Of a stretch of 62,156 nt of DNA, positions 4,622 to 16,362 are shown in pieces; positions within the stretch are counted from its first letter, which is position 1, and every line of letters begins with the position of its first letter. Origin of the DNA: Muribaculum sp. (lineage in GTDB: Bacteria > Bacillota > Clostridia > Lachnospirales > Lachnospiraceae). The DNA is taken from the NCBI GenBank assembly GCA_023663735.1, contig JAMPGV010000007.1:1-62156 (forward strand), read 5' to 3'. Both the position numbers and the translations under genes were made by a program. The notes under the pieces were generated by a model that was not told the origin of the DNA, made no database searches, and saw nothing but the letters and a program-made list of their open reading frames with translations.

Positions 4622-6034
4622 TTACTGAAGCGGGAACTGGAAGTATCTCTTGGCGTTGTGATAGGAGATATTTTCCACGATCTCGCCCAGAATCTCATAG
4701 TCTGCGGGGAACTCGCCGTTCTCCACCCATTTGCCGAGGAGGTTGCAGAGGATTCTGCGGAAATACTCGTGTCTGGTGTAGGACAAAAAGCTTCTGGAGT
4801 CGGTGAGCATTCCCACAAAGCCGGAGAGATTGCCCAGATTGGCCAGAGAGGTCATCTGTTCCTCCATGCCGGTCTTGTGGTCGTTGAACCACCATGCGCT
4901 GCCCTGCTGGATCTTGGCAACCGCCGTGGAATCCTGAAAACATCCGAGAATCGTGCCGATGGACTGGTTATCGTTGGGGTTCAGGCTGTAGAGGATGGTT
5001 CTGGGAAGCTCGTCGGTCACTACCAGAGCGTTCAAAAAGTCTGCCATCTGTGCGGAAGGCGCATAGTTGTTGATGCAGTCGTAACCGGTGTCGGGACCCA
5101 GTTTGGCGTACATCAAAGTATTGTTGTCGCGCTTGCAGCCGTAGTGGAGCTGCATCGCCCAGCCCAGCTTATGGTACTCTCTGCCGACAAAGAGCATGAA
5201 AGCGGTCTTAAATTTCATCTCGTCCTCGCGGCTGAGGGGAATCTTGTTCTGTCTCTTTAAGAAGATCTGTTCGATCTCCTCATCGTCTGCGGGACAGTAC
5301 ATCACATACTCCAGCGCGTGGTCGGAGACGGTACATCCCATGGAGGCGAAGAATTCCATGCGCTGCTTTAAGGCGGTCTTTAAGGCCTCGAAGGTGATGA
5401 TCTCATCCATGCCGCACACGGAAGCCAGCTTGCCCAGATAATCCAGATACTCGGATTTCTCGATATTCATCGCCTTGTCGGGTCTCCATGCGGGGCGCAC
5501 GATCACATCGAAGCTGTCGTCCTCCGCGATCTTCTTGTGCCATTCCAGAGAATCGATGGGATCGTCTGTGGTGCAGATCAAGGTCACATTGCTCTGCTTG
5601 ATGATGTTGCGCACGGACATGGAAGGCTCCTGCAGCTTGGCGTTGCAGAGATTCCAGACCTCGTCGGCGGTCTTGGCGTTCAGCACGCCGTTGTAGCCAA
5701 AGTATCTCTGAAGCTCCAGATGGCTCCAGTGGAAGAGGGGGTTGCCGACGGCTTTGCCGAGGCATTCCGCCCATTTGCAGAATTTGTCGTAATCGGAGGC
5801 GTCGCCGGTGATGTATTTCTCATCGACGCCGCAGGAGCGCATCAAGCGCCATTTGTAGTGGTCGCCGCCCAGCCATACCTGCGTGATATTTTCAAATTGA
5901 CGATCCTCCGCAATCTCCTTGGGATTGATGTGGCAGTGGTAGTCGAGGATCGGGGTCTTTTCCGCATAGTCGTGAAACAGCTTCTTGGCTGTCTCGGTCT
6001 CAAGCAGAAAATCTTTGTCCATAAATGCTTTCAT
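4622..6034 (-). CDS. uxaC: Glucuronate/galacturonate isomerase
   Basis: A 470-residue protein, the normal length of UxaC. It interconverts D-glucuronate and D-fructuronate, and D-galacturonate and D-tagaturonate, the first cytoplasmic step of hexuronate use. The sequence opens with the family text MKAFMDKDFLLETETAKKLF, has the amidohydrolase-like metal motif DYHCHINP near residue 30, and contains LGGDHYKWR and the late VGMLTDSRSFLSYTRHEYFRR block. The start at 6034 has AGGAGGT just upstream. It has its own promoter at 6135-6163 and stops at a bidirectional hairpin. The next pathway enzymes, UxaB and UxaA, are encoded divergently from 13.4 kb, separated by the AT-rich protease island. Confidence 0.95.
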   Translation of the reverse strand: MKAFMDKDFLLETETAKKLFHDYAEKTPILDYHCHINPKEIAEDRQFENITQVWLGGDHYKWRLMRSCGVDEKYITGDASDYDKFCKWAECLGKAVGNPLFHWSHLELQRYFGYNGVLNAKTADEVWNLCNAKLQEPSMSVRNIIKQSNVTLICTTDDPIDSLEWHKKIAEDDSFDVIVRPAWRPDKAMNIEKSEYLDYLGKLASVCGMDEIITFEALKTALKQRMEFFASMGCTVSDHALEYVMYCPADDEEIEQIFLKRQNKIPLSREDEMKFKTAFMLFVGREYHKLGWAMQLHYGCKRDNNTLMYAKLGPDTGYDCINNYAPSAQMADFLNALVVTDELPRTILYSLNPNDNQSIGTILGCFQDSTAVAKIQQGSAWWFNDHKTGMEEQMTSLANLGNLSGFVGMLTDSRSFLSYTRHEYFRRILCNLLGKWVENGEFPADYEILGEIVENISYHNAKRYFQFPLQ

Positions 6035-6371: not shown

Positions 6372-6974
6372 ATGGGAAATGCGGACAATTTAGGAAGTGA
6401 GGCTAAGGGGGAGCGCGAGGACAATAGGGAGCAGACGGCCGGGAAACAGGAGCGTGTGAAACGCCGCGTCAACAATCTGAAAGGAATCCTTTTTTTCTTG
6501 TTTATAGCTTGTCTGTTGTCTGTGGCCGTCACAACCTTGATTCCGTTTAAGCGGGGGATCGCCGGGGAATATACGGCCGATGTGGTCAGTCTTTCCACAC
6601 ATGAGAAGACCGGGGAGGCGCAGATCCGTTTCTCGGGTACCTACACACAGTATTTGTTCAATATGATGTTTCGGGATCGCTTTGAGGGAGCGTTTTATGT
6701 GGAGGGGAATCCTTTGTCTGACAAATACGGCGGACATGCTTTTATTGATTTTGAAAAGGCGTTTTCCCCGGCCAAAACCGGTGTGGTGTGCTATTATAAC
6801 GAGGAGGATAACCGGCTGGAACCTATGGGAATGATTAATCAGAGAGCGCAGATGCAGTCGGGGTATCTGATTTTGAATACTGCCATGACGGAAGGAGAGG
6901 ATGATCTAGTACTGGTTTTCCCGCAGAACCATTCAGGAGTGCAGCTTGATTTGGAGAAGTACCTCGGGCTTTAG
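6372..6974 (+). CDS. Single-TM membrane protein of unknown function
   Basis: About 200 residues from the ATG at 6372, which has AAGGGAG upstream; an earlier in-frame start at 6303 has no ribosome site. A charged cytoplasmic N-terminus (about 37 residues, rich in E, K, R) is followed by one TM helix (about 39-58, GILFFLFIACLLSVAVTT) and a roughly 140-residue extracytoplasmic domain of predicted beta character. No cysteine pairs, lipobox or known motif were recognised. It is immediately downstream of the solo protease-tail repeat, whose promoter-like sequence could drive it, and upstream of the M4 protease. A role linked to the protease island is possible only by position. Confidence 0.75.
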   Translation: MGNADNLGSEAKGEREDNREQTAGKQERVKRRVNNLKGILFFLFIACLLSVAVTTLIPFKRGIAGEYTADVVSLSTHEKTGEAQIRFSGTYTQYLFNMMFRDRFEGAFYVEGNPLSDKYGGHAFIDFEKAFSPAKTGVVCYYNEEDNRLEPMGMINQRAQMQSGYLILNTAMTEGEDDLVLVFPQNHSGVQLDLEKYLGL

Positions 6975-7141
6975 GCGGCGCGTCGGAGTCTGTCGTTTAT
7001 TTTTTGTCAGGCGCGGCATAAAAAAGCGGGAAAATTGATTCTGGCAATTTGACGGACAAATTTATAATGCGGTTGATATAAAAACATTAAATATGATAGT
7101 ATAAAAATAATTTATTTTAGAATCACATCATTTCACAAATC

Positions 7142-7219
7142 GAGTTTCGCAAATACATAGACATGTTTAGGCGTTTGCGAAACTCTTATTTCAGCAAAGA
7201 GTCATTTGTGTAAACGCCT
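7142..7219. mobile_element. Internally deleted MITE-like element, short copy
   Basis: GAGTTTCGCAAA (7142-7153) and TTTGCGAAACTC (7174-7185) form a perfect 12-bp inverted repeat. A 51-bp unit, 7169-7219, starts AGGCGTTT and ends AAACGCCT. Read on the plus strand it matches the reverse complement of the right arm of the 199-bp element at 12563-12761 (the GCGAAACTCTTATTT, GCAAAG and GTCATT blocks). So both are copies of one family, this one reduced to its ends. Confidence 0.65.
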
Positions 7220-7307
7220 AGATATGTTAAATGCAGGGAGAAGTAAAAGATAATAGTGATTTGAGTCAAAATCATATGACAGGTACATCTATGGAAAGGA
7301 TATATAC

Positions 7308-7324
7308 GCAAAGCGATACTTTGC
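7308..7324 (+). promoter_or_regulatory. Inverted repeat upstream of the M4 protease gene
   Basis: GCAAAG-CGATA-CTTTGC, a 6-bp perfect inverted repeat about 40 bases before the protease start, could be an operator. The rest of the 6975-7361 gap is AT-rich and holds the short MITE copy; I see no convincing coding sequence in it. Confidence 0.35.
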
Positions 7325-7361
7325 TTAGTATATAAATATTGAGAAAAGAAGGATGAAACGA

Positions 7362-10300
7362 ATGATGAAAAGAAGAACCCCCAAAGGTATGACGAGAGCG
7401 CTTGCCGTTCTTTTATCAATCGGTATGCTTACCGGTGGTACAAATATTACGGCGTTTGCGGAAGATTACACCGCATCGCCTGAAGATGCACCAATCGTGT
7501 CAGTATCACCGGAGGGAGAGCCGGCACAAACAGACGATCTTTGGGACGGGATAACCATGGAGTCTATCTATGAGGGAGACGGATTTCAGGTCAAATTCCA
7601 ACTTGAGAGTTGTTGGAACGGGGGTTTTAATGCCAAAGTAGGAATCGATAACACGGGAGAACTTGAAATCAGAAACTGGTGTATTGCTTTTGATTATCAG
7701 GGAGTACTTACAAATGTATGGAATGCAGTCCTGACATCTTCAGATGCCGGAAATATTATCGTAAGAAATGCCGGTTGGAACAAGGATATTGCGGTAGGTC
7801 AAGGAGTGGAATTTGGAATCAGCTGTAATGAGAACTTTGCCGGATTCCCTGACAAGTATCAGATTTCAGGTGAATTTAACAGTCTGAATACGGAAGATTA
7901 CAGCATAGCGTATGAAGTGGTCAGCGAATGGGAAGATGGGTTTAACGGTAACATCTTAGTTACAAATCATACGGATGTTCCGATTGAAGAATGGTATTTG
8001 GAATTTGATTATAATGTGGAGATCAATAATCTTTGGAATGGTACAATTGTATCTAATGAAGATAGTCATTTTATCGTAAATAATTATGGCTTCAACGCTG
8101 CCATTCAGCCCGGTGAAACGATTACAATCGGATTTACCGGAAGACATTTAGATGATCAGAGTTGTCCGTCCAATAGTGTATTACATACGTTTGCCTATGA
8201 ACCAATCGAAAATCAGGATACCTATATTGTTACTTTTGATTGCTCCGCTGCGGAAGTGATGAATGCTCCTGCCGAGCAGACAGTGCTTGCCAATGATCTG
8301 GTGAAGGAACCGATTGCGCCCTCTCGTGTCGGTTACTTATTTGACGGATGGTACGCGGATGCGTTGTATACGATTAGATATGATTTTTCTGCTCCTGTGA
8401 CCGGTAGTCTGACCTTGTATGCGAAATGGCAGCAGATGAATGACAATTTAAATGATGATATTATTGATCGGGGAGATATAGAATACTTAAAAACGTTAGG
8501 ATTGCTTGAAGTAGGTTATAGCGCTTCCGGTGGTATATCGTATATTTATGGTGATTTTTGGAATAAAAAGGTTCATTCCGTTGAAGATGCGGCCGAGGTA
8601 TTGAATGCTTCCTCATCTTTGTGGGGCGACGGGTTCCATGCTTCGGCTGCTGAAATCGGTGTCAAGACAGTAGGAGAAGGCAGTGAATTAGTAAGCTATT
8701 ACACTTATACACCGGTGGTCAGAAATGTACCGGTTGTAGGCAGCCAGATTAAGTTGATGGTAGAGTCAACAGGCAGCATATATGCACTTTTTAACAGCTA
8801 TGATAAAAGAATTGTCAGAGTGAGTACGACTCCTGCAATCACACAAGAGCAGGCAGTAGAGATTGCATTTGACGCTCTGTTAGGAAGTGACAGAGTAGTA
8901 GAATTTGTCAATGATTCTATGGAGCAAATCACCGCGCTTTATGAAGAGGATGTAATGGACAGAGTCCGGATCCTTGAGCATATTAAGGGATCGGCAACAG
9001 TAAGTGCATCACTGAAGATTCAGTGTATGAATGAGGACGGTCCTAAGTTGGTATATGTGATACATCTGCGCAATTCATCAGCGGCAGACACAGATGAAGT
9101 TCCCGTTAGGCTTGCATACTCCGTAACATATCTCATTACAGCGAATGGCGATGCAGGTCAGATCATCAGAGAGGTTTCATCAAATAGCAATGCTTATTTG
9201 ACCGCTTCCGATGGCAAGGCGGACAGGCGCATTGAAGTTACAGAGGACGGAAATGACTATGTATTGATTGATGCATCAAGAAATATTTCGACATACAAAT
9301 CCACCTATACGAAATTCTTAATTTGGCCAGACTATAAGTTCCCGGGGGATTTGGTTAGAGTAAGCAAAGGTTCTGCTCCGGATGAAAGGGCTGTTACCGT
9401 TCATGCAAACATGGCGGAAGTTTTTGATTATTACAAGAATCAATTATCACGTAATTCTTATGATAATCAGGGTGCAGCGATCATCATCACATATGATTAT
9501 GAAGGAAGTAGGAATAACGCCTGTTGGGATCACAATTTGGAGCAGTTTGTCTTTGATAAGATAGGAGATCTGATAAAGGCGAAGGATGCGGTGGCACATG
9601 AGTTTACACACGCTGTATTTGAGAGTGTTGTTTATTCTATGGATACAAAGACTTATAATAGCAACTATTTTGGTGAAACAGGGGGATTAAATGAGGCCTA
9701 TGCAGATATTATGGGCAATCTCATAGAAGGGAAAACGGACGGCGGGCAATGGACCTATGCGGAGGATGTAGAGACAGGCAGAGATATGAAGGATCCTACT
9801 AAGTATAATCAAGTGGATCATTATTCCGATATTAAAAGTTATGTACATAGCCCTTATGACCGTGGCGGAGTTCATACTACAAGCGGAGTGATAAACAAAG
9901 CCGCTTATCTAATGATGACTGACGATCGCACTTCCGGAATCACTTCAACAACATGGGCTAAGATTTTTTATAGTTCGATGTATAATTTGACGGAAACTGC
10001 CACTTTCCTGCAAGCCCGGGAGTCCATTATTGCTGTGGCAAAGAAAAGGAACTTCAACAGTGAACAGCTGCAGGCAATAAAGGACGCCTTTGATGAAGTG
10101 GGAGTCATTGAACCGGATGCTATAGAAATAGTATTAACTTGGGGAGCATCACCAAAGGATTTAGATTCGCATTTGGTGGGACCTATTGCATCATCCGAAA
10201 ACCGATTCCATTTGTATTATGGAAAGAGAGATATTGGAGACGCAGGAACGGATTCCTGGCAGGCTGATTTAGATTATGATGACGGATCGTCATTTGGCCC

Positions 10301-10577
10301 GGAGGTAGTTACCATTCGACAGTTGGTGCCGGGAACATATTATTTCTATGTATATGATTTCTCTGACGGAGGACTTTCTGACTCATCTGCCCTTTCTAAC
10401 TCAGGCGCCAAGGTGCGGGTGTATAGGGGAAATGAGACAACGCCAATGAACGAGTTTACCGTTAGGCCAAATCAAGTCGGTACTTATTGGAATGTCTTTA
10501 AATTGACAGTTGATTCGGATCATCGTGTTGACATAGAAACGATTGATACATATTCGAATACCGTGTTATATCAGTAA
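7362..10577 (+). CDS. Secreted M4 (thermolysin-like) metallopeptidase with carbohydrate-binding-like modules
   Basis: About 1,071 residues. The start at 7362 is chosen because AGAAGG ends nine bases upstream; the ATG at 7353 abuts that site. In order: a signal peptide cleaved after AFA (about residue 33); two CBM2-like beta modules (about 70-160 and 182-268, each with WNGG/W-x-FDY and LWNGT-type aromatic patterns); an InlB-type repeat (about 285-355, GYLFDGWYAD); a thermolysin propeptide region (about 370-610); the M4 catalytic domain with zinc motif HEFTH (746-750), Glu ligand in GGLNEAYAD and catalytic His in GGVHTTSG; and a C-terminal DUF2135-like domain (about 925-1030, SPKDLDSHL, FGPEVVTI). 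All catalytic residues are present, so it should be an active extracellular protease, possibly retained on glycans. It is markedly AT-richer than its surroundings. Parts of its 3' end are copied four more times nearby. Confidence 0.9.
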   Translation: MMKRRTPKGMTRALAVLLSIGMLTGGTNITAFAEDYTASPEDAPIVSVSPEGEPAQTDDLWDGITMESIYEGDGFQVKFQLESCWNGGFNAKVGIDNTGELEIRNWCIAFDYQGVLTNVWNAVLTSSDAGNIIVRNAGWNKDIAVGQGVEFGISCNENFAGFPDKYQISGEFNSLNTEDYSIAYEVVSEWEDGFNGNILVTNHTDVPIEEWYLEFDYNVEINNLWNGTIVSNEDSHFIVNNYGFNAAIQPGETITIGFTGRHLDDQSCPSNSVLHTFAYEPIENQDTYIVTFDCSAAEVMNAPAEQTVLANDLVKEPIAPSRVGYLFDGWYADALYTIRYDFSAPVTGSLTLYAKWQQMNDNLNDDIIDRGDIEYLKTLGLLEVGYSASGGISYIYGDFWNKKVHSVEDAAEVLNASSSLWGDGFHASAAEIGVKTVGEGSELVSYYTYTPVVRNVPVVGSQIKLMVESTGSIYALFNSYDKRIVRVSTTPAITQEQAVEIAFDALLGSDRVVEFVNDSMEQITALYEEDVMDRVRILEHIKGSATVSASLKIQCMNEDGPKLVYVIHLRNSSAADTDEVPVRLAYSVTYLITANGDAGQIIREVSSNSNAYLTASDGKADRRIEVTEDGNDYVLIDASRNISTYKSTYTKFLIWPDYKFPGDLVRVSKGSAPDERAVTVHANMAEVFDYYKNQLSRNSYDNQGAAIIITYDYEGSRNNACWDHNLEQFVFDKIGDLIKAKDAVAHEFTHAVFESVVYSMDTKTYNSNYFGETGGLNEAYADIMGNLIEGKTDGGQWTYAEDVETGRDMKDPTKYNQVDHYSDIKSYVHSPYDRGGVHTTSGVINKAAYLMMTDDRTSGITSTTWAKIFYSSMYNLTETATFLQARESIIAVAKKRNFNSEQLQAIKDAFDEVGVIEPDAIEIVLTWGASPKDLDSHLVGPIASSENRFHLYYGKRDIGDAGTDSWQADLDYDDGSSFGPEVVTIRQLVPGTYYFYVYDFSDGGLSDSSALSNSGAKVRVYRGNETTPMNEFTVRPNQVGTYWNVFKLTVDSDHRVDIETIDTYSNTVLYQ

Positions 10578-10587
10578 GGAGTAGCCG

Positions 10588-10998
10588 ATGAGTAAGAGGA
10601 AGGAAATATTTATTATGAAGAAATATGTTATTGCTTATTCCGTTTTGTTTTTGATTCTTTTGGGATTGGGATTGACGCATGGAATACCGTTTGGTATTAC
10701 CATTTGGGAGAAGAATTGGAGCATGGCAACTTATCCTGAAACAATTCGGGAAATTGTGCTGATTTACAATATTATCATTATGTGGTTGTGCTTCGTGATT
10801 GCGGTTATTCTGACGAAGCAGAAACAAAATGTTTTAAAATGCAAGTGGCTGATCCCGGTTATCATGTTCATTTGTCTCGCATTCCTGCCGATGGGTATGT
10901 ATGAGTGCGTTATCTATGTTCCCTGGAAATATAAAAAGGAATTTTGGTCCTTCATTTCATTACTTACACATCAACATGACATAGGAATTTATCATTAA
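10588..10998 (+). CDS. Three-TM small membrane protein, paralogue 1
   Basis: 136 residues, starting at the ATG at 10588, which follows AAGGAG by seven bases and lies ten bases after the protease stop, so it is probably co-transcribed with the protease. An internal ATG at 10615 corresponds to the start used by the other paralogues. Three TM helices (about 12-32, 54-76, 84-104 from the first Met) flank an outside loop with the conserved D/NWS.A.YPE motif and a positively charged inside loop (KQKQN.LKCK). Topology is inferred from the positive-inside rule. No family is recognised. Being fixed directly behind a secreted protease and then amplified suggests a partner such as an immunity, export or regulatory protein, but this is inference. 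Confidence 0.8.
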   Translation: MSKRKEIFIMKKYVIAYSVLFLILLGLGLTHGIPFGITIWEKNWSMATYPETIREIVLIYNIIIMWLCFVIAVILTKQKQNVLKCKWLIPVIMFICLAFLPMGMYECVIYVPWKYKKEFWSFISLLTHQHDIGIYH

Positions 10999-11045
10999 GC
11001 ATAAACTTTCCATAAGCTTTTAGGATGGGGCTGTAGGCAAACAGA

Positions 11046-11200
11046 GATATTGGAGACGCAGGAACTGATTTCTGGCAGGCTGATTTAGATTATGATGATG
11101 GATCGTCATTTGGCCCGGAGGTAGTTACCATTCGACAGTTGATTCGGATTATCGTGTTGACATAGAAACGAGTGACACATATTCGAATACTGCATTACCT
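11046..11200 (+). pseudogene. Protease C-terminal fragment, array copy A
   Basis: Matches the M4 gene from its DUF2135-like domain (starting DIGDAGTD) to near its 3' end, but lacks 187 bp. The breakpoint is at GACAGTTG, an 8-bp sequence present at 10318-10325 and 10505-10512 in the intact gene, so deletion occurred between short direct repeats. The join shifts the frame and stops at TAG 11163-11165. There is no start codon, so it is not translated as a useful protein. Confidence 0.8.
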
Positions 11201-11269
11201 TTTAATAAGGACTATTTGTTTCATGAGGAATATCTGATGCATAAGATGAAAGAGAGAAGGGGCGTTTAT

Positions 11270-11653
11270 ATGAAGAAATATGTCATTGCTTATTCTGTTT
11301 TGTTTTTGATCCTTTTGGGACTGGGATTGACGCATGGAATACCGTTTGGTGTTACTGTTTACGAGTTGGATTGGAGCACGGCATTTTATCCTGAAGTAAT
11401 TCGGGAAATTTTGTTAATTTACAATATCATCATTATGTTGGCGTGTTTTGTGCTGGCGGTTATTCTGACAAAGCAGAAACAAAATGGTTTAAAATGTAAG
11501 TGGCTGATCCCGGTTATCATGTTCATTTGTCTCGCATTCCTACCGATGGGTATGTATGAGCGTGTTCAATATGTTCCCTGGGAATATGAAAAGGAATTTT
11601 GGTCTTTCATTTCATTAATTACACATAAGCATGACATAGGGATTTATCATTAA
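11270..11653 (+). CDS. Three-TM small membrane protein, paralogue 2
   Basis: 127 residues from the ATG at 11270 behind GAAGGGG; an upstream TTG at 11216 would add an 18-residue leader and is less likely. Same layout as paralogue 1: MKKYVIAY start, three TM helices, outside loop with VYELDWSTAFYPE, inside loop KQKQNGLKCK. From the second inside loop to the C-terminus it is identical to paralogue 3, while the loop between TM1 and TM2 differs. Preceded by a damaged protease tail whose TTGACA could supply a promoter. Function unknown. Confidence 0.75.
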   Translation: MKKYVIAYSVLFLILLGLGLTHGIPFGVTVYELDWSTAFYPEVIREILLIYNIIIMLACFVLAVILTKQKQNGLKCKWLIPVIMFICLAFLPMGMYERVQYVPWEYEKEFWSFISLITHKHDIGIYH

Positions 11654-11700
11654 GCATAGACTTTCCATAAGCTTTTAGGATGGGGCCGTAGGCAAACAGG

Positions 11701-11855
11701 GATATTGGAGACGCAGGAACTGATTTCTGGCAGGCTGATTTAGATTATGATGATGCATCAGCATTTGGTCCGGAAGTAGTTACCATTCGACAGTTGATTC
11801 GGATTATCGTGTTGGCATAGAAACGATTGACACATATTCGAATACTGCATTACAT
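11701..11855 (+). pseudogene. Protease C-terminal fragment, array copy B
   Basis: Second copy of the deleted protease tail, with the same GACAGTTG junction and frameshift to an early TAG. It carries TTGACA at 11827-11832 and TACATT at 11851-11856 with an 18-base spacer, a possible weak promoter for the next gene. Confidence 0.8.
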
Positions 11856-11924
11856 TTTAATAAGGACTATTTGTTTCATGAGGAATATCTGATGCATAAG
11901 ATGAAGGAGAGAAGGAGCGTTTAT

Positions 11925-12308
11925 ATGAAGAGGTATGTCATTGCTTATTCCGTTTTGTTTTTGATTCTTTTGGGACTGGGATTGACGCATGGAATACCGT
12001 TTGGTGTTACTGTTTCCGAGTTGGATTGGAGCATGGCAACTTATCCCGAAATAACTCGGGACCTTTTGTTGATTTACAATATCATCATTATGTTGGCGTG
12101 TTTTGTGATGGCGGTTATTCTGACGAAACAGAAACAAAATGGTTTAAAATGTAAGTGGCTGATCCCGGTTATCATGTTCATTTGTCTCGCATTCCTACCG
12201 ATGGGTATGTATGAGCGTGTTCAATATGTTCCCTGGGAATATGAAAAGGAATTTTGGTCTTTCATTTCATTAATTACACATAAGCATGACATAGGGATTT
12301 ATCATTAA
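11925..12308 (+). CDS. Three-TM small membrane protein, paralogue 3
   Basis: 127 residues from the ATG at 11925, preceded by a GAAGGAG-type site. Nearly identical to paralogue 2 at the ends, but with changes concentrated in residues about 28-58: VSELDWSMATYPE in place of VYELDWSTAFYPE, and R-D-L in place of R-E-I. The C-terminal half, including TM3 and the tail ending HKHDIGIYH, is unchanged. Function unknown. The clustering of differences in the predicted outside loop and TM2 is the notable feature. Confidence 0.75.
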   Translation: MKRYVIAYSVLFLILLGLGLTHGIPFGVTVSELDWSMATYPEITRDLLLIYNIIIMLACFVMAVILTKQKQNGLKCKWLIPVIMFICLAFLPMGMYERVQYVPWEYEKEFWSFISLITHKHDIGIYH

Positions 12309-12355
12309 GCATAGACTTTCCATAAGCTTTTAGGATGGGGCCGTAGGCAAACAGG

Positions 12356-12510
12356 GATATTGGAGACGCAGGAACTGATTTCTGGCAGGCTGATTTAGAT
12401 TATGATGATGCATCAGCATTTGGTCCGGAAGTAGTTACCATTCGACAGTTGATTCGGATTATCGTGTTGGCATAGAAACGATTGACACATATTCGAATAC
12501 TGCATTACAT
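12356..12510 (+). pseudogene. Protease C-terminal fragment, array copy C
   Basis: Third copy of the deleted protease tail, essentially identical to copy B (same DASAF variant, same TAG). It lies upstream of the MITE insertion that separates it from paralogue 4. Confidence 0.8.
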
Positions 12511-12562
12511 TTTAATAAGGACTATTTGTTTCATGAGGAATATCTGATGAATACGATTGAAT

Positions 12563-12761
12563 AGGCAATTGCGAAACTCCAATTTTCGTAATCCGAATTG
12601 TGCAGATTGTATACTCCATAAGCAGACCCTAGCGAACCGTCGGTACTTAGATGCCGTATTTTGGCATCTTACGTACCGTTACGGTGAAGGTGGGACGTCT
12701 GCGTTGGAATATACAATTTGCACAATGACCCTTTGCCAAAATAAGAGTTTCGCAAACGCCT
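12563..12761. mobile_element. 199-bp MITE-like palindromic element
   Basis: The unit starts AGGCAATTGCGAAACTC and ends GAGTTTCGCAAACGCCT, imperfect 17-bp terminal inverted repeats. Inside, further arms pair in order: ATTGTGCAGATTGTATA with TATACAATTTGCACAAT, then GCAGAC with GTCTGC, ACCGT with ACGGT, GGTAC with GTACC, and AGATGCC with GGCATCT around a GTATTTT loop. The whole element is therefore one long hairpin. It interrupts the leader of paralogue 4, adding 213 bases relative to the other units. It encodes no transposase; a 68-codon open frame across it is a by-product. A related 51-bp copy lies at 7169-7219. Confidence 0.8.
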
Positions 12762-12792
12762 GATAAGATGAAGGAGAGAAGGAGGCGTTTAC

Positions 12793-13176
12793 ATGAAGAA
12801 ATATGTCATTGCTTATTCTGTTTTGTTTTTGATCCTTTTGGGACTGGGATTGACGCATGGAATACCGCTTGGTATTACCATTTCTGAGCAGGATTGGAGC
12901 ATGGCAACTTATCCCGAAGTAATTCGGGACATTATGCTAATTTACAATATCGACATTATGTGGGCGTGCTTCGTGATTGCGGTTATTCTGACAAAGCAGA
13001 AAGAAAATGGTTTAAAATGCAAGTGGCTGATCCCGGTTATCATGTTCATTTGTCTCACATTCCTGCCGGTGGGTATGTATGAGCGTGTTCGCTATGTTCC
13101 TTGGGAATATGAAAAGGAATTTTGGTCCTTCATTTCATTACTTACACATAAACATTACATAACAATTTATCATTAA
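12793..13176 (+). CDS. Three-TM small membrane protein, paralogue 4
   Basis: 127 residues from the ATG at 12793 behind GAAGGAGG. Same three-TM layout. Most diverged of the array copies: ITISEQDWSMATYPEVIRD in the outside loop, a D in TM2 (NIDIMWACF), KQKENGLKCK inside, and a changed tail (HKHYITIYH). It is closest to paralogue 1 in TM2 (MW.CFVIAV). Its leader contains the 199-bp palindrome, whose hairpin may affect expression. It is the only array member followed by a complete terminator. Confidence 0.75.
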   Translation: MKKYVIAYSVLFLILLGLGLTHGIPLGITISEQDWSMATYPEVIRDIMLIYNIDIMWACFVIAVILTKQKENGLKCKWLIPVIMFICLTFLPVGMYERVRYVPWEYEKEFWSFISLLTHKHYITIYH

Positions 13177-13200
13177 GCATAGACTTTTCATAAGCTTTTA

Positions 13201-13258
13201 GGATGGGGCGTGAGCAATGGAGTTTCAAGTATTCTATTTTCGCAGCCCCATCCTTTTT
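13201..13258 (+). terminator. Terminator at the end of the small-membrane-gene array
   Basis: GGATGGGGC (13201-13209) pairs with GCCCCATCC (13245-13253), followed by TTTTT. Upstream copies 1-3 retain only the 5' arm (TTAGGATGGGGC) before the next protease-tail fragment, so only this one is complete. Confidence 0.8.
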
Positions 13259-13318
13259 CGGTATGACGGACATTTTTGTGTTGGCGGCATAATTGTAGTG
13301 GAAAATATTTGGAAAATA

Positions 13319-13327
13319 TGTTATAGT
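13319..13327 (+). promoter_or_regulatory. Extended -10 promoter element for uxaB-uxaA
   Basis: TGTTATAGT is a good extended -10 about 75 bases before the uxaB start. No strong -35 is visible, which suits an activator-dependent or regulated promoter. Confidence 0.45.
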
Positions 13328-13405
13328 AAGTTTATTAGAGCGGAGAAACCGGCAGCGGCCGGAAACTTAAGATGCGCAGGGCGCGCAGAATGGAGGATAT
13401 AGATC

Positions 13406-14866
13406 ATGGAAATCTTAAACAAGTCAATGACAGGCAGAAAAGAGAGACCGGTCAAGGTGGTTCAGTTCGGCGAGGGCAATTTCCTTCGCGCGTTCGTGGA
13501 CTACATGATTGATATCGCCAATGAGAAGGGAACCTTCGACGGAGATATCGTTCTGATCAAGCCCATCGAGTTCGGCAATCTGGACATGTTCCACAAGCAG
13601 GACTGCCAGTATACGGTGTCTTTGCGCGGCAATGTGGACGGCGAGGGCAAGATTATCAACCGCGTGGTGACCAGCGTGGCCGATGCGGTTGACACGTTCA
13701 ACGAGTATGAGAAATACATGAGCCTTGCTGAGATTGACACGCTTCGCTTTGTGGTATCCAACACCACCGAGGCGGGCATCGTGTTTGACGACACCGACAA
13801 GTTTGAGCTGAATCCTCCTAAGACTTTCCCCGGAAAGCTGACTAAGTTCCTGCACCACAGATTCGAGACCTTTCAGGGGGATCTGTCCAAAGGCCTTGTG
13901 ATGCTGCCCGTGGAGCTGATCGACGACAACGGCATCATGTTGAAGAAATGTGTGATGCAGCTGATTGATCTGTGGGGACTGTCCGCAGATTTCAAGAAAT
14001 GGGTGGAGGACGCCTGCATTTTCACCGCTACCTTGGTGGACCGCATTGTCACCGGATACCCCCGCGCCACCGAGCAGGAAGAGTGGGAGAAACTGGGCTA
14101 TGAGGATCACATCATGGTGACGGGCGAGCCGTTTGCCCTCTGGGTCATCGAGTCCGACAAGGATATCAGCAAAGAGTTCGATCTGCCCGGCGCAGGACTG
14201 CCCGTGGTATTTACCGACGATCATCACCCCTACAAACAGAGAAAAGTGCGTATCTTAAACGGCGCGCATACATCCTTCGTGCTGGCGTCCTGGCTGTGCG
14301 GCAACGATATCGTGAGACAGTCCATGGAGGACGATGATATCCGCAATTTCATGAACAAGACGATTTTTGATGAGGTTATTCCCACGCTGACGCTTCCTGA
14401 GGACGAACTGAAGGCGTTTGCCGGAGAGGTAGTAAACCGTTTCAACAATCCTTATGTGGATCATGCGCTGCTGGCCATCTCCTTGAACTCCGTGTCCAAG
14501 TGGAGGGCGAGATGTCTTCCCAGCCTGCTCGGCTATGTGGACAAATTCGGAAAGCTCCCCGCGCACATGACGTTCTCCATTGCGGCGCTGATGGCATTTT
14601 ACACCGGAACCGAGATCCGGGACGGCGCGCTGATCGGACACAGGGACGGTCAGGAGTACAGCGTGAAGGACGACATGCCTGTGCTGGAATTCTTCCGCGA
14701 CAACTGCACGAAAGAGACGAGGGCGTTTGTGACCGCTTATCTTGGCAGAGAGGACTTCCATGGTCAGGATCTGAACAAGGTTCCCGGACTCACCGACGCG
14801 GTTGTGGCTTATCTGGATGATATTAAGACAAATGGAATGAGGGCGGCATTATGCAGAATTTCTTAA
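13406..14866 (+). CDS. uxaB: Tagaturonate reductase (altronate oxidoreductase)
   Basis: 486 residues, start ATG 13406 behind GGAGG. It reduces D-tagaturonate to D-altronate with NADH, the second step of galacturonate breakdown. It belongs to the mannitol dehydrogenase-like polyol dehydrogenases: an N-terminal Rossmann segment (VKVVQFGEGNFLRAFVDYM, about residues 17-35), the family's VVSNTTEAGI block, and the C-terminal catalytic motif KxxxLNGAHT near KVRILNGAHTS (about 282-292). Its 3' end overlaps the uxaA start by 16 bases, so the two are one operon. UxaC is encoded divergently about 7.4 kb upstream. Confidence 0.95.
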   Translation: MEILNKSMTGRKERPVKVVQFGEGNFLRAFVDYMIDIANEKGTFDGDIVLIKPIEFGNLDMFHKQDCQYTVSLRGNVDGEGKIINRVVTSVADAVDTFNEYEKYMSLAEIDTLRFVVSNTTEAGIVFDDTDKFELNPPKTFPGKLTKFLHHRFETFQGDLSKGLVMLPVELIDDNGIMLKKCVMQLIDLWGLSADFKKWVEDACIFTATLVDRIVTGYPRATEQEEWEKLGYEDHIMVTGEPFALWVIESDKDISKEFDLPGAGLPVVFTDDHHPYKQRKVRILNGAHTSFVLASWLCGNDIVRQSMEDDDIRNFMNKTIFDEVIPTLTLPEDELKAFAGEVVNRFNNPYVDHALLAISLNSVSKWRARCLPSLLGYVDKFGKLPAHMTFSIAALMAFYTGTEIRDGALIGHRDGQEYSVKDDMPVLEFFRDNCTKETRAFVTAYLGREDFHGQDLNKVPGLTDAVVAYLDDIKTNGMRAALCRIS

Positions 14867-16362
14867 AAATCAATGAGAATGACAATGTGGTGGTGGCGTT
14901 GAACACCATCCCCGCGGGGGAGACGATCACCGTGGAGGCGGAGGGCGGGAGCAAATCCGTCACCGCGCTGGAGGAGATTCCCGCAGGCCACAAGATGGCG
15001 ATCTGTGATATCCCCGAGGGCGGCGAGGTCATCAAGTACGGCTACCGTATCGGCAATGCGAAGGAGACCATCAAGACCGGAAACTGGATCCATGTACACA
15101 ATGTGAAGACGGCGCTGGGGGATCTGCTGGAGTACAGCTACAATCCCGTTCCCGTGGAAGAAAAGAAGACCGAGGACGTGACCTTTATGGGCTTCAACCG
15201 TCAGGACGGCAAGGTGGGCGTGCGCAACGATATCTGGGTCATTCCCACCGTGGGCTGCGTGAACAATGTGGCGGGCGCGATCGTGAAGCGGGCAAACGAC
15301 TGGCTGAACGCCAACCGGAACGGTCTGGAGACGGTGGGCGAGGTGATTACCTTCCCTCATCCTTACGGCTGTTCTCAGATGGGAGACGATCAGGAACACA
15401 CCAGAGCCATTCTGGCGGATCTGATCAATCATCCCAACGCAGGCGGCGTGCTGGTGCTGGGGCTTGGCTGTGAGAACAGCAACATTGACGTGTTAAAGCC
15501 CTACATCGGGGAGTATGACGAGAAGCGGGTGAAATTTCTGGTGTCTCAGGAACATGACGATGAGATCGAGGACTCCGTGGAACTGATCAAAGAGCTGGCC
15601 GCTTATGCGGGAAGCTTCAAGCGCGAGCCGATCAGTGTGAGCAAACTGGTGATCGGCATGAAGTGCGGCGGAAGTGACGGACTCTCCGGCATCACCGCCA
15701 ATCCTCTGGTGGGACGTTTCTCCGACCTGCTGATTTCCAAGGGAGGCACCACGATTCTGACGGAGGTGCCTGAGATGTTCGGTGCGGAGACCATCCTCAT
15801 GAACCGCTGCGCCAACGAGGAGCTGTTTGAGAAGACCGTGGATCTGATCAATGATTTCAAGAATTATTTCAAGAGCCACAACCAGACCATCTATGAGAAT
15901 CCTTCTCCGGGCAACAAGAAGGGCGGCATCTCCACGCTGGAGGACAAATCTCTGGGATGTACCCAGAAATCCGGCAGCGCGCTGGTGAAGGGCGTGCTGG
16001 CCTACGGCGAGACCGTGAAGACGCCGGGCTTGAATCTCTTGAGCGCACCCGGGAACGATCTGGTGGCCGCTACCGCGCTGGCGGCGGCGGGTGCGCATAT
16101 CGTACTCTTCACCACGGGCAGAGGAACGCCGTTTGCTTCCCCTGTGCCTACGATGAAAATCGCCACCAACTCCAGACTGGCGAACAAGAAGTCCAACTGG
16201 ATTGATTTCAATGCCGGCGTGTTGGTGGAGGAGAGCAACATGAACGACGAGACACAGAGACTCTTTGATCTGGTGGTGGAGACCGCAAGCGGCAGGCAGG
16301 TGTGCAGCGAGGCGGCAGGGTTCCATGACATGGCCATCTTTAAGCAGGGCGTGACGCTGTAA
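14851..16362 (+). CDS. uxaA: Altronate dehydratase
   Basis: 503 residues from the ATG at 14851 (inside the uxaB 3' end). It dehydrates D-altronate to 2-keto-3-deoxygluconate, the third step. The N-terminal SAF domain (about 1-95) is followed by the catalytic domain with FNRQDGKVGVRNDIWVIPTV, HPYGCSQMGDD, LGLGCEN and MKCGGSDGLSGITANP motifs that carry the conserved Cys and His of the iron-dependent D-galactarate/altronate dehydratase family. Length is normal for a fused SAF-catalytic UxaA. A hairpin at 16426-16458 closes the unit. No kdgK or kdgA is visible in this window. Confidence 0.95.
   Translation: MQNFLKINENDNVVVALNTIPAGETITVEAEGGSKSVTALEEIPAGHKMAICDIPEGGEVIKYGYRIGNAKETIKTGNWIHVHNVKTALGDLLEYSYNPVPVEEKKTEDVTFMGFNRQDGKVGVRNDIWVIPTVGCVNNVAGAIVKRANDWLNANRNGLETVGEVITFPHPYGCSQMGDDQEHTRAILADLINHPNAGGVLVLGLGCENSNIDVLKPYIGEYDEKRVKFLVSQEHDDEIEDSVELIKELAAYAGSFKREPISVSKLVIGMKCGGSDGLSGITANPLVGRFSDLLISKGGTTILTEVPEMFGAETILMNRCANEELFEKTVDLINDFKNYFKSHNQTIYENPSPGNKKGGISTLEDKSLGCTQKSGSALVKGVLAYGETVKTPGLNLLSAPGNDLVAATALAAAGAHIVLFTTGRGTPFASPVPTMKIATNSRLANKKSNWIDFNAGVLVEESNMNDETQRLFDLVVETASGRQVCSEAAGFHDMAIFKQGVTL

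Follow-up and report, generated by a model that had tools for sequence, protein, structure and literature searches.

A double-CBM2 metalloprotease gene with a row of damaged protease tails and diverged membrane-protein genes: a candidate polymorphic-toxin locus of Lachnospiraceae

Why would an intact protease gene be followed by a row of small membrane-protein genes that alternate with damaged copies of the protease's own 3' end? The question is raised by a contig of Muribaculum sp. (GTDB family Lachnospiraceae; assembly GCA_023663735.1, contig JAMPGV010000007.1), of which we analyzed positions 1 to 62,156, hereafter the window. Here, an intact M4 protease gene is followed by four genes for 127-aa proteins with three predicted transmembrane segments (three-TM proteins), and a deleted protease tail precedes three of them. 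We favor, with a probability of roughly 0.62, the reading that the locus belongs to a family of exoproteins with two CBM2 domains and exchangeable warheads, M4 in this case, that the three-TM proteins provide membrane immunity, and that the array arose by duplication. On this reading, the 127-aa proteins would act as membrane-embedded immunity against their own M4 protease and related proteases, and these putative immunity proteins would protect the producer and perhaps its kin.

Layout and possible origin of the array

The protease gene (7353..10577, forward strand, as are all genes and tails described here) encodes a secreted-looking protein of 1074 aa. It is followed by small gene 1 (10588..10998; 136 aa from 10588, 127 aa from 10615), tail 1 (11043..11200, out of frame), gene 2 (11270..11653), tail 2 (11698..11855), gene 3 (11925..12308), tail 3 (12353..12510) and gene 4 (12793..13176). 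The original prediction for this DNA, made from its letters alone, had described exactly such an array, with a deletion between direct repeats common to all three tails, and both points were confirmed: each tail lacks 187 bp between the GACAGTTG copies at 10318 and 10505. All three tails are frameshifted, run into a stop and encode nothing recognizable. The same prediction had given the array an exact 655-bp period. This holds for the tails, whose register starts at 11034, 11689 and 12344 (with clear homology from 11043, 11698 and 12353), and for the first two units, but not for the third: the genes are spaced 655, 655 and 868 bp apart, because 213 bp, a dispersed palindromic repeat (12557..12764, no strand assigned), were inserted into the third unit. 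The 197-bp core of the insert occupies at least 41 places in the genome at E <= 1e-28, 12557-12764 included, a lower bound since 40 of 136 candidates were scored. This repeat of ~200 bp is MITE-like (resembling miniature inverted-repeat transposable elements) and ends in GAGTTTCGCAAACGCC-type termini; by eye, similar termini lie just upstream of the protease gene, at 7140-7215.

Positions 11474-11894 are identical over 421 bp to the stretch 655 bp further on, and part of the array was therefore recently duplicated or converted. The 5' halves of the copies differ from each other, which shows that assembly did not produce the four genes by duplicating a single one. All four are open, and the ratio of nonsynonymous to synonymous substitution rates (dN/dS) among them and their orthologue at locus L005 is 0.29-0.60 over the whole gene.

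The array contains one complete terminator, a strong hairpin with a T-run behind gene 4 (13200..13262, forward strand; minimum free energy -31.7, z -5.98). The junctions after genes 1-3 carry the terminator 5' arm alone (z -0.34, 0.72 and 0.72 against shuffles), and L005, an orthologue present as one gene (77% identity), bears a terminator-like hairpin directly behind it (z -5.32). The arms at the junctions indicate that the duplicated unit comprised the protease 3' end, the gene and part of the terminator. Our model suggests that one unit would first have lost 187 bp of its tail between the GACAGTTG repeats, and that tandem duplication of the toxin 3' end, immunity gene and terminator 5' arm would have followed. 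Loss of the 3' arm at each junction would leave a single read-through transcription unit ending near 13262, in which we expect the genes to be co-transcribed. Divergence of the copies, for the most part in segments predicted to lie outside, and exchange of sequence between them may have come later. Two matches within the tails (TTGACA-18-TACATT, at 11827 and 12482) were considered as promoters and rejected, as the region holds 15 such sites against 20.3 expected by shuffling. No Rfam element was found in 6900-13450 at E <= 1.

Double-CBM2 proteins and the genes behind them

A Pfam scan of the 1074-aa protein revealed two CBM_2 domains (the double-CBM2 profile region is 7566-8192), Flg_new (a Flg_new/InlB-type repeat), Peptidase_M4 and Peptidase_M4_C. 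The M4 assignment is clear: PF01447 and PF02868 match at 3.4e-21 and 1.3e-31, an HExxH motif (HEFTH) stands at residue 749, thermolysin and bacillolysin chains match down to 9e-32, and the catalytic and helical domains that mark M4 members are present. The protein has no Pfam match to an LXG or WXG N-terminal domain; instead, a hydrophobic N-terminal segment is predicted, consistent with export. Its C-terminal domain has no Pfam family, and the DUF2135 label originally attached to it was dropped, since no match appeared even at E <= 10. Residues 919-1074, which form this domain, recur at 35-50% identity in genus proteins (L043, L044, L112, L139; loci and genomes of relatives are cited by our own handles).

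Some part of the window protease is matched in 25 of 138 genus genomes at E <= 1e-15. The CBM2 profile is matched in 19 of these 138 at E <= 1e-10, in 26 of 397 genomes of the family sample, where lower-scoring matches are largely single CBM2 spans, and in 4 of 291 of the class sample at E <= 1e-20, window genome included. All 25 family proteins scanned whole with Pfam contain two CBM_2 stretches, a figure that shows consistency only, the proteins having been found by their CBM2 region. A hydrophobic N-terminal segment was called in 41 of 44 family open reading frames (ORFs), the remaining three being cut at the 5' end. The window genome has a second CBM2 match (contig 3), in a cut-off ORF without toxin-like context.

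Behind the CBM2 region come M4, S8, or TSP3/VWA stalks with varied C-termini. The warhead is M4 in the window, L128 and L137; S8 in L123, L129, L136, L138, L155 and L158; AHH in L132 (3.4e-16) and L134 (2.5e-15); CDI_toxin_EC869_like in L127 (7.9e-7); and Lipase_3 in L163 and L165. Other C-termini match DUF3289 (L152, L153) or DUF4474 (L162), Tox-REase-9 below its cut-off (L135), or combine HExxH motifs close to the end with sub-cut-off M6 matches (L125, L161). The C-terminus of L150 has some likeness to known Rhs/CDI toxin ends but no Pfam toxin match at cut-off. Alignments between stalk-type proteins extend from the N-terminus to about residue 900, beyond which the sequences part (L131 with L132 and with L141, for example), and the double-CBM2 family shows the shared N-terminal region with varied toxin domains that defines polymorphic toxins. 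Separately, L126:5258-6341 holds several double-CBM2 protein fragments downstream of the parent, one of which, at 36% identity over 262 residues, is possibly a displaced older toxin end.

We then asked which genes lie behind these proteins. Among the window and 49 further regions, 31 loci passed our rule (a closed ORF of >=600 aa, a CBM2 profile span of >=150 and >=1 kb downstream); 49 ORFs of >=600 aa with >=1.5 kb downstream served as the control, and 302 ORFs of >=250 aa as a wider one. From 38 genus CBM2 places we left out G008:C4, G073:C83 (two), G123:C162, G034:C5 (two), G137:C33 and G068:C3, which were at contig edges, broken or weak. From the family sample, 20 places in other genomes at E <= 2.4e-42 were taken, and the weaker ones, mostly single CBM2 spans, left out. 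L142 is cut at its 5' end, and one of the 31 loci is partly masked.

A same-strand gene follows within 200 bp in 28 of the 31 loci, compared with 30/49 in the control (p = 0.004), and this gene is also no longer than 260 aa in 21/31 versus 10/49 (p = 3e-5). Tandem paralogues occur downstream in 9/31 loci but in only 1/49 control loci (p = 0.0006) and 5/302 in the wider control. The excess persists without the window (8/30, p = 0.0015) and when the partly masked locus and a case of 26% identity are also removed (6/28, p = 0.008). Likewise, a toxin 3' tail lies downstream in 6/31 loci versus 1/49 (p = 0.012; 7/302 in the wider control), and in 5/30 without the window (p = 0.027).

The clearest case of a known partner comes from both AHH proteins (L132, L134), behind which Imm11 lies within 25 bp (1.5e-8 and 3.5e-10, above the cut-off). 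PMC3482391 lists Tox-AHH with Imm11. As this is a known toxin-immunity pairing, the genes behind double-CBM2 proteins fit immunity. Polymorphic-toxin loci carry an immunity gene directly downstream, and here we find Imm11 and the 28 of 31 close neighbors, with the window gene as a putative further example. They also accumulate orphan immunity genes or tail/immunity modules, for which the family offers six loci with tails, nine with paralogues and seven orphan loci described below.

An array of the same kind stands at L124, with four units of immunity gene and toxin 3' tail and a gene family unrelated to the window small gene. Its first tail copies the final 108 nt of the protein gene at 98% identity, and a terminator-like hairpin closes the array (z -3.75), compared with 0.42, -0.19 and 0.21 at the three inner junctions. 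In L133, L125 and L135, a tail stands directly before a paralogue; that of L135 fuses the first 125 nt of the protein gene to its last 44 nt. L162 has a tail, and no paralogue was found there. We considered homology between the window small protein and the 127-aa genes of L125 and found none. The likeness to polymorphic-toxin loci with orphan toxin-end/immunity modules, proposed from the window alone, is borne out by this recurrence of one layout behind unrelated warheads and small genes, and by the AHH/Imm11 pair found twice.

The three-TM proteins and their homologues

The array copies are 84-85% identical to the fourth copy. From the positive-inside rule, residues 29-48 and 96-125 are predicted to lie outside. 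In the small-protein alignment, 24 of 50 sites in these segments are variable versus 17 of 75 elsewhere (p = 0.003), but the outside/inside split was chosen after the alignment had been seen, which weighs against our reading. The four window copies alone give 19/50 and 11/75. The ratio of nonsynonymous to synonymous polymorphism (pN/pS) is 1.22 in loop 29-48 and 0.15-0.45 in the other segments. The small gene matches nothing in phages, plasmids or viral contigs, and a phage or plasmid origin was rejected.

For homologues, we searched with a seven-row alignment of the small protein in the genus sample of 138 genomes and the family sample of 397. At E <= 0.001, 6 of the 138 match, window genome included. 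In the family sample 29 of the 397 match, of which the window genome and G165 were accepted. The 27 weak matches (E 1.9e-7 to 9.7e-4) cover profile residues from roughly 14 to 98, fall without exception in open frames 435-986 aa long, and were judged to be chance matches of membrane helices, one of them having been read by eye. A match in G021, with an internal stop and, by eye, a Cas9 neighborhood, was set aside. This leaves seven homologous loci outside the window: L005, G002, G004 (near a contig end), G137, G153 (a fragment), G134 and G165.

By eye, the ORF lists of these seven loci show none that adjoins an M4, CBM2 or other secreted protease. The original prediction had envisaged a dedicated protease-partner system and had named homologues lying away from any protease as the finding that would speak against it; with 0/7, a dedicated and conserved pair is not supported. 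Orphan immunity genes would give this same pattern. Across genomes, a CBM2-profile match is present in 4 of the 6 genomes with a small-gene homologue versus 19 of 138 overall (p = 0.003), and in 3/5 without the window (p = 0.016). Three of the seven loci have a cytosolic-looking peptidase 3.4-5.1 kb away (a dipeptidase at L005 and L009, a YgjP-like protein at L094; by eye). Another observation concerns L009:10113-15457, where small lipoprotein and membrane genes lie beside an orphan small-gene homologue; seven were scanned, with no Pfam match at cut-off, and the region looks like an immunity island.

Weighing the readings against each other and against known systems

Several observations weigh against the immunity reading. 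All seven other small-gene loci lie away from any CBM2 protein. Small-protein copies 1, 2 and 4 match no Pfam or NCBIfam family at cut-off, and the fold model is poor (predicted local distance difference test score, pLDDT, 49.7). Tandem paralogues are absent from 22 of the 31 loci and tails from 25, and loci within the genus are not independent. Several double-CBM2 family members lack a partner: no same-strand neighbor lies within 200 bp in L138, L142 and L166, nor in L203 from a single-contig genome, and the next gene looks metabolic by eye in L136 and L163. Moreover, the classic pattern, in which a constant stalk takes on different C-termini, shows best in the TSP3/VWA branch. Several members of the M4/S8 branch have their last domain in common, so that the partner varies more than the C-terminus there.

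One alternative, which we regard as unlikely, is a private inhibitor or maturation partner: the small proteins would keep the protease in an inactive state, or shield the membrane and the export machinery during its secretion, without any competition between cells. Staphostatins, and SpeB with Spi, provide the model. What speaks for it is where the partners are placed. Among rows accepted by eye, a script placed the partner in the membrane or as a lipoprotein for 9/10 proteases and lipases and for 1/4 nucleases (p = 0.04); self-protection alone would also need such partners. With a later start for L137 and a borderline segment in L127 dismissed, the same rows give 10/10 versus 0/4 (p = 0.001). 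The contrast shrinks to 10/12 versus 1/4 when L136 and L163 are kept (p = 0.06), to 9/12 when L163 is counted as having no partner (p = 0.12), and to 9/10 versus 1/3 without the sub-cut-off L135 (p = 0.11). We rejected warhead type as a predictor of partner location, given p = 0.04 on chosen rows and 0.06-0.12 with all rows. The link is weak once all rows are kept, which also counts against the immunity reading, and it serves as a lead only. Against a private inhibitor stand the tandem diverged copies, the orphan homologues in genomes without the protease and the nuclease/Imm11 relatives, all of which point to a weapon-type system.

We consider it still less probable that an unrelated accessory membrane gene came to lie behind the protease and that unequal recombination multiplied it, with the tails as passengers and no functional link. 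The seven other loci without a neighboring secreted protease would fit such hitch-hiking, as would the orthologue L005, which occurs as one copy and has a terminator-like hairpin to itself. However, tandem small genes are far commoner behind double-CBM2 proteins than behind control ORFs, and in the same position toxin tails are found again next to small genes of unrelated families.

Control of dosage by copy number, raised in the original prediction, is very improbable. Four intact genes that no complete terminator separates would suit it, but the copies have diverged, chiefly where the segments are predicted to lie outside, and appear to fit a repertoire better than a dose. An assembly artefact can be practically dismissed: the draft genome (73 contigs, 87% complete, in which further array copies may have collapsed) and the exact repeat at the 655-bp offset would allow it, but the four genes differ and another genome (L124) has the same kind of array.

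Returning to membrane immunity, a step that we infer from the layout of the sequence, the closest published arrangement we found is TspA/TsaI of Staphylococcus aureus, described in PMC9484751, a type VII toxin whose membrane immunity genes form a cluster. There, too, polytopic membrane immunity genes that are not identical to one another stand in a row behind a polymorphic toxin, and a toxin 3'-end fragment lies between two of them. In contrast to our locus, TspA is a substrate of the type VII secretion system with a membrane-depolarizing domain, and TsaI (DUF443) has five predicted TMs (PMC9484751). The window has a CBM2-headed M4 protein, its three-TM family is not related to TsaI, and three of the four genes are preceded by a tail. 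In a Pfam scan for DUF443, copy 4 had no match, and what matched copies 1 and 2 belonged to other families and stayed below cut-off.

The orphan modules of contact-dependent inhibition (CDI) and Rhs loci are alike in that partial toxin copies, each with an immunity gene, lie downstream of the main toxin (PMC3150448, and a Salmonella Rhs duplicate via PMC9484751). They differ in their delivery proteins, and the remnants in the window are short, shifted in frame and without coding capacity. Classical polymorphic toxins, in the accessible text of PMC3482391, share with the double-CBM2 family AHH with Imm11, metallopeptidase warheads and, in some architectures, carbohydrate-binding adhesion domains. 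In that same text, unlike in the window, Tox-MPTase1-5 are typically Rhs-linked and nearly all immunity proteins are cytoplasmic; 'CBM', 'cellulose' and 'thermolysin' have 0 occurrences in it.

A further comparison is with the S8-PTS of Gram-positive bacteria, in which a subtilase, a secreted toxin and an immunity protein occur together and the S8 peptidase is a separate gene. In the window family, S8 or M4 lies inside the double-CBM2 protein.

The literature found on polymorphic toxins, in which coverage of subscription papers and preprints is thin and absence weak, names no double-CBM2 toxin class. The window locus appears to be a protease-armed member of the polymorphic-toxin type with a diversified, immunity-like membrane array. 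Whether it represents an undescribed class we judge to be evenly balanced. In such a class, of Lachnospiraceae-type gut bacteria, the double-CBM2 exoproteins would come in two sorts: nucleases that enter cells, paired with soluble immunity proteins, and whole proteases or lipases acting outside the cell (M4, S8, zincin, class 3 lipase), paired with immunity proteins that are membrane proteins or lipoproteins. Diversified arrays of the latter, maintained by strains, would be shields against rival proteases.

If the immunity reading is true, a secreted thermolysin-type protease with cellulose-binding domains would be a weapon between bacteria, and the row of orphan membrane genes its shield. Gram-positive gut bacteria would have a type of weapon that does not belong to type VII secretion, a role would be found for a number of small lipoproteins and membrane proteins that lack a name, and a mechanism of membrane-embedded immunity against a protease would become testable with one gene.

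As to the surroundings, the locus is flanked by a glucuronate isomerase on one side and by a tagaturonate reductase and a galactarate dehydratase-like gene, the last below its cut-off, on the other, and so lies in a hexuronate gene neighborhood (4622-6034 and 13406-16362).

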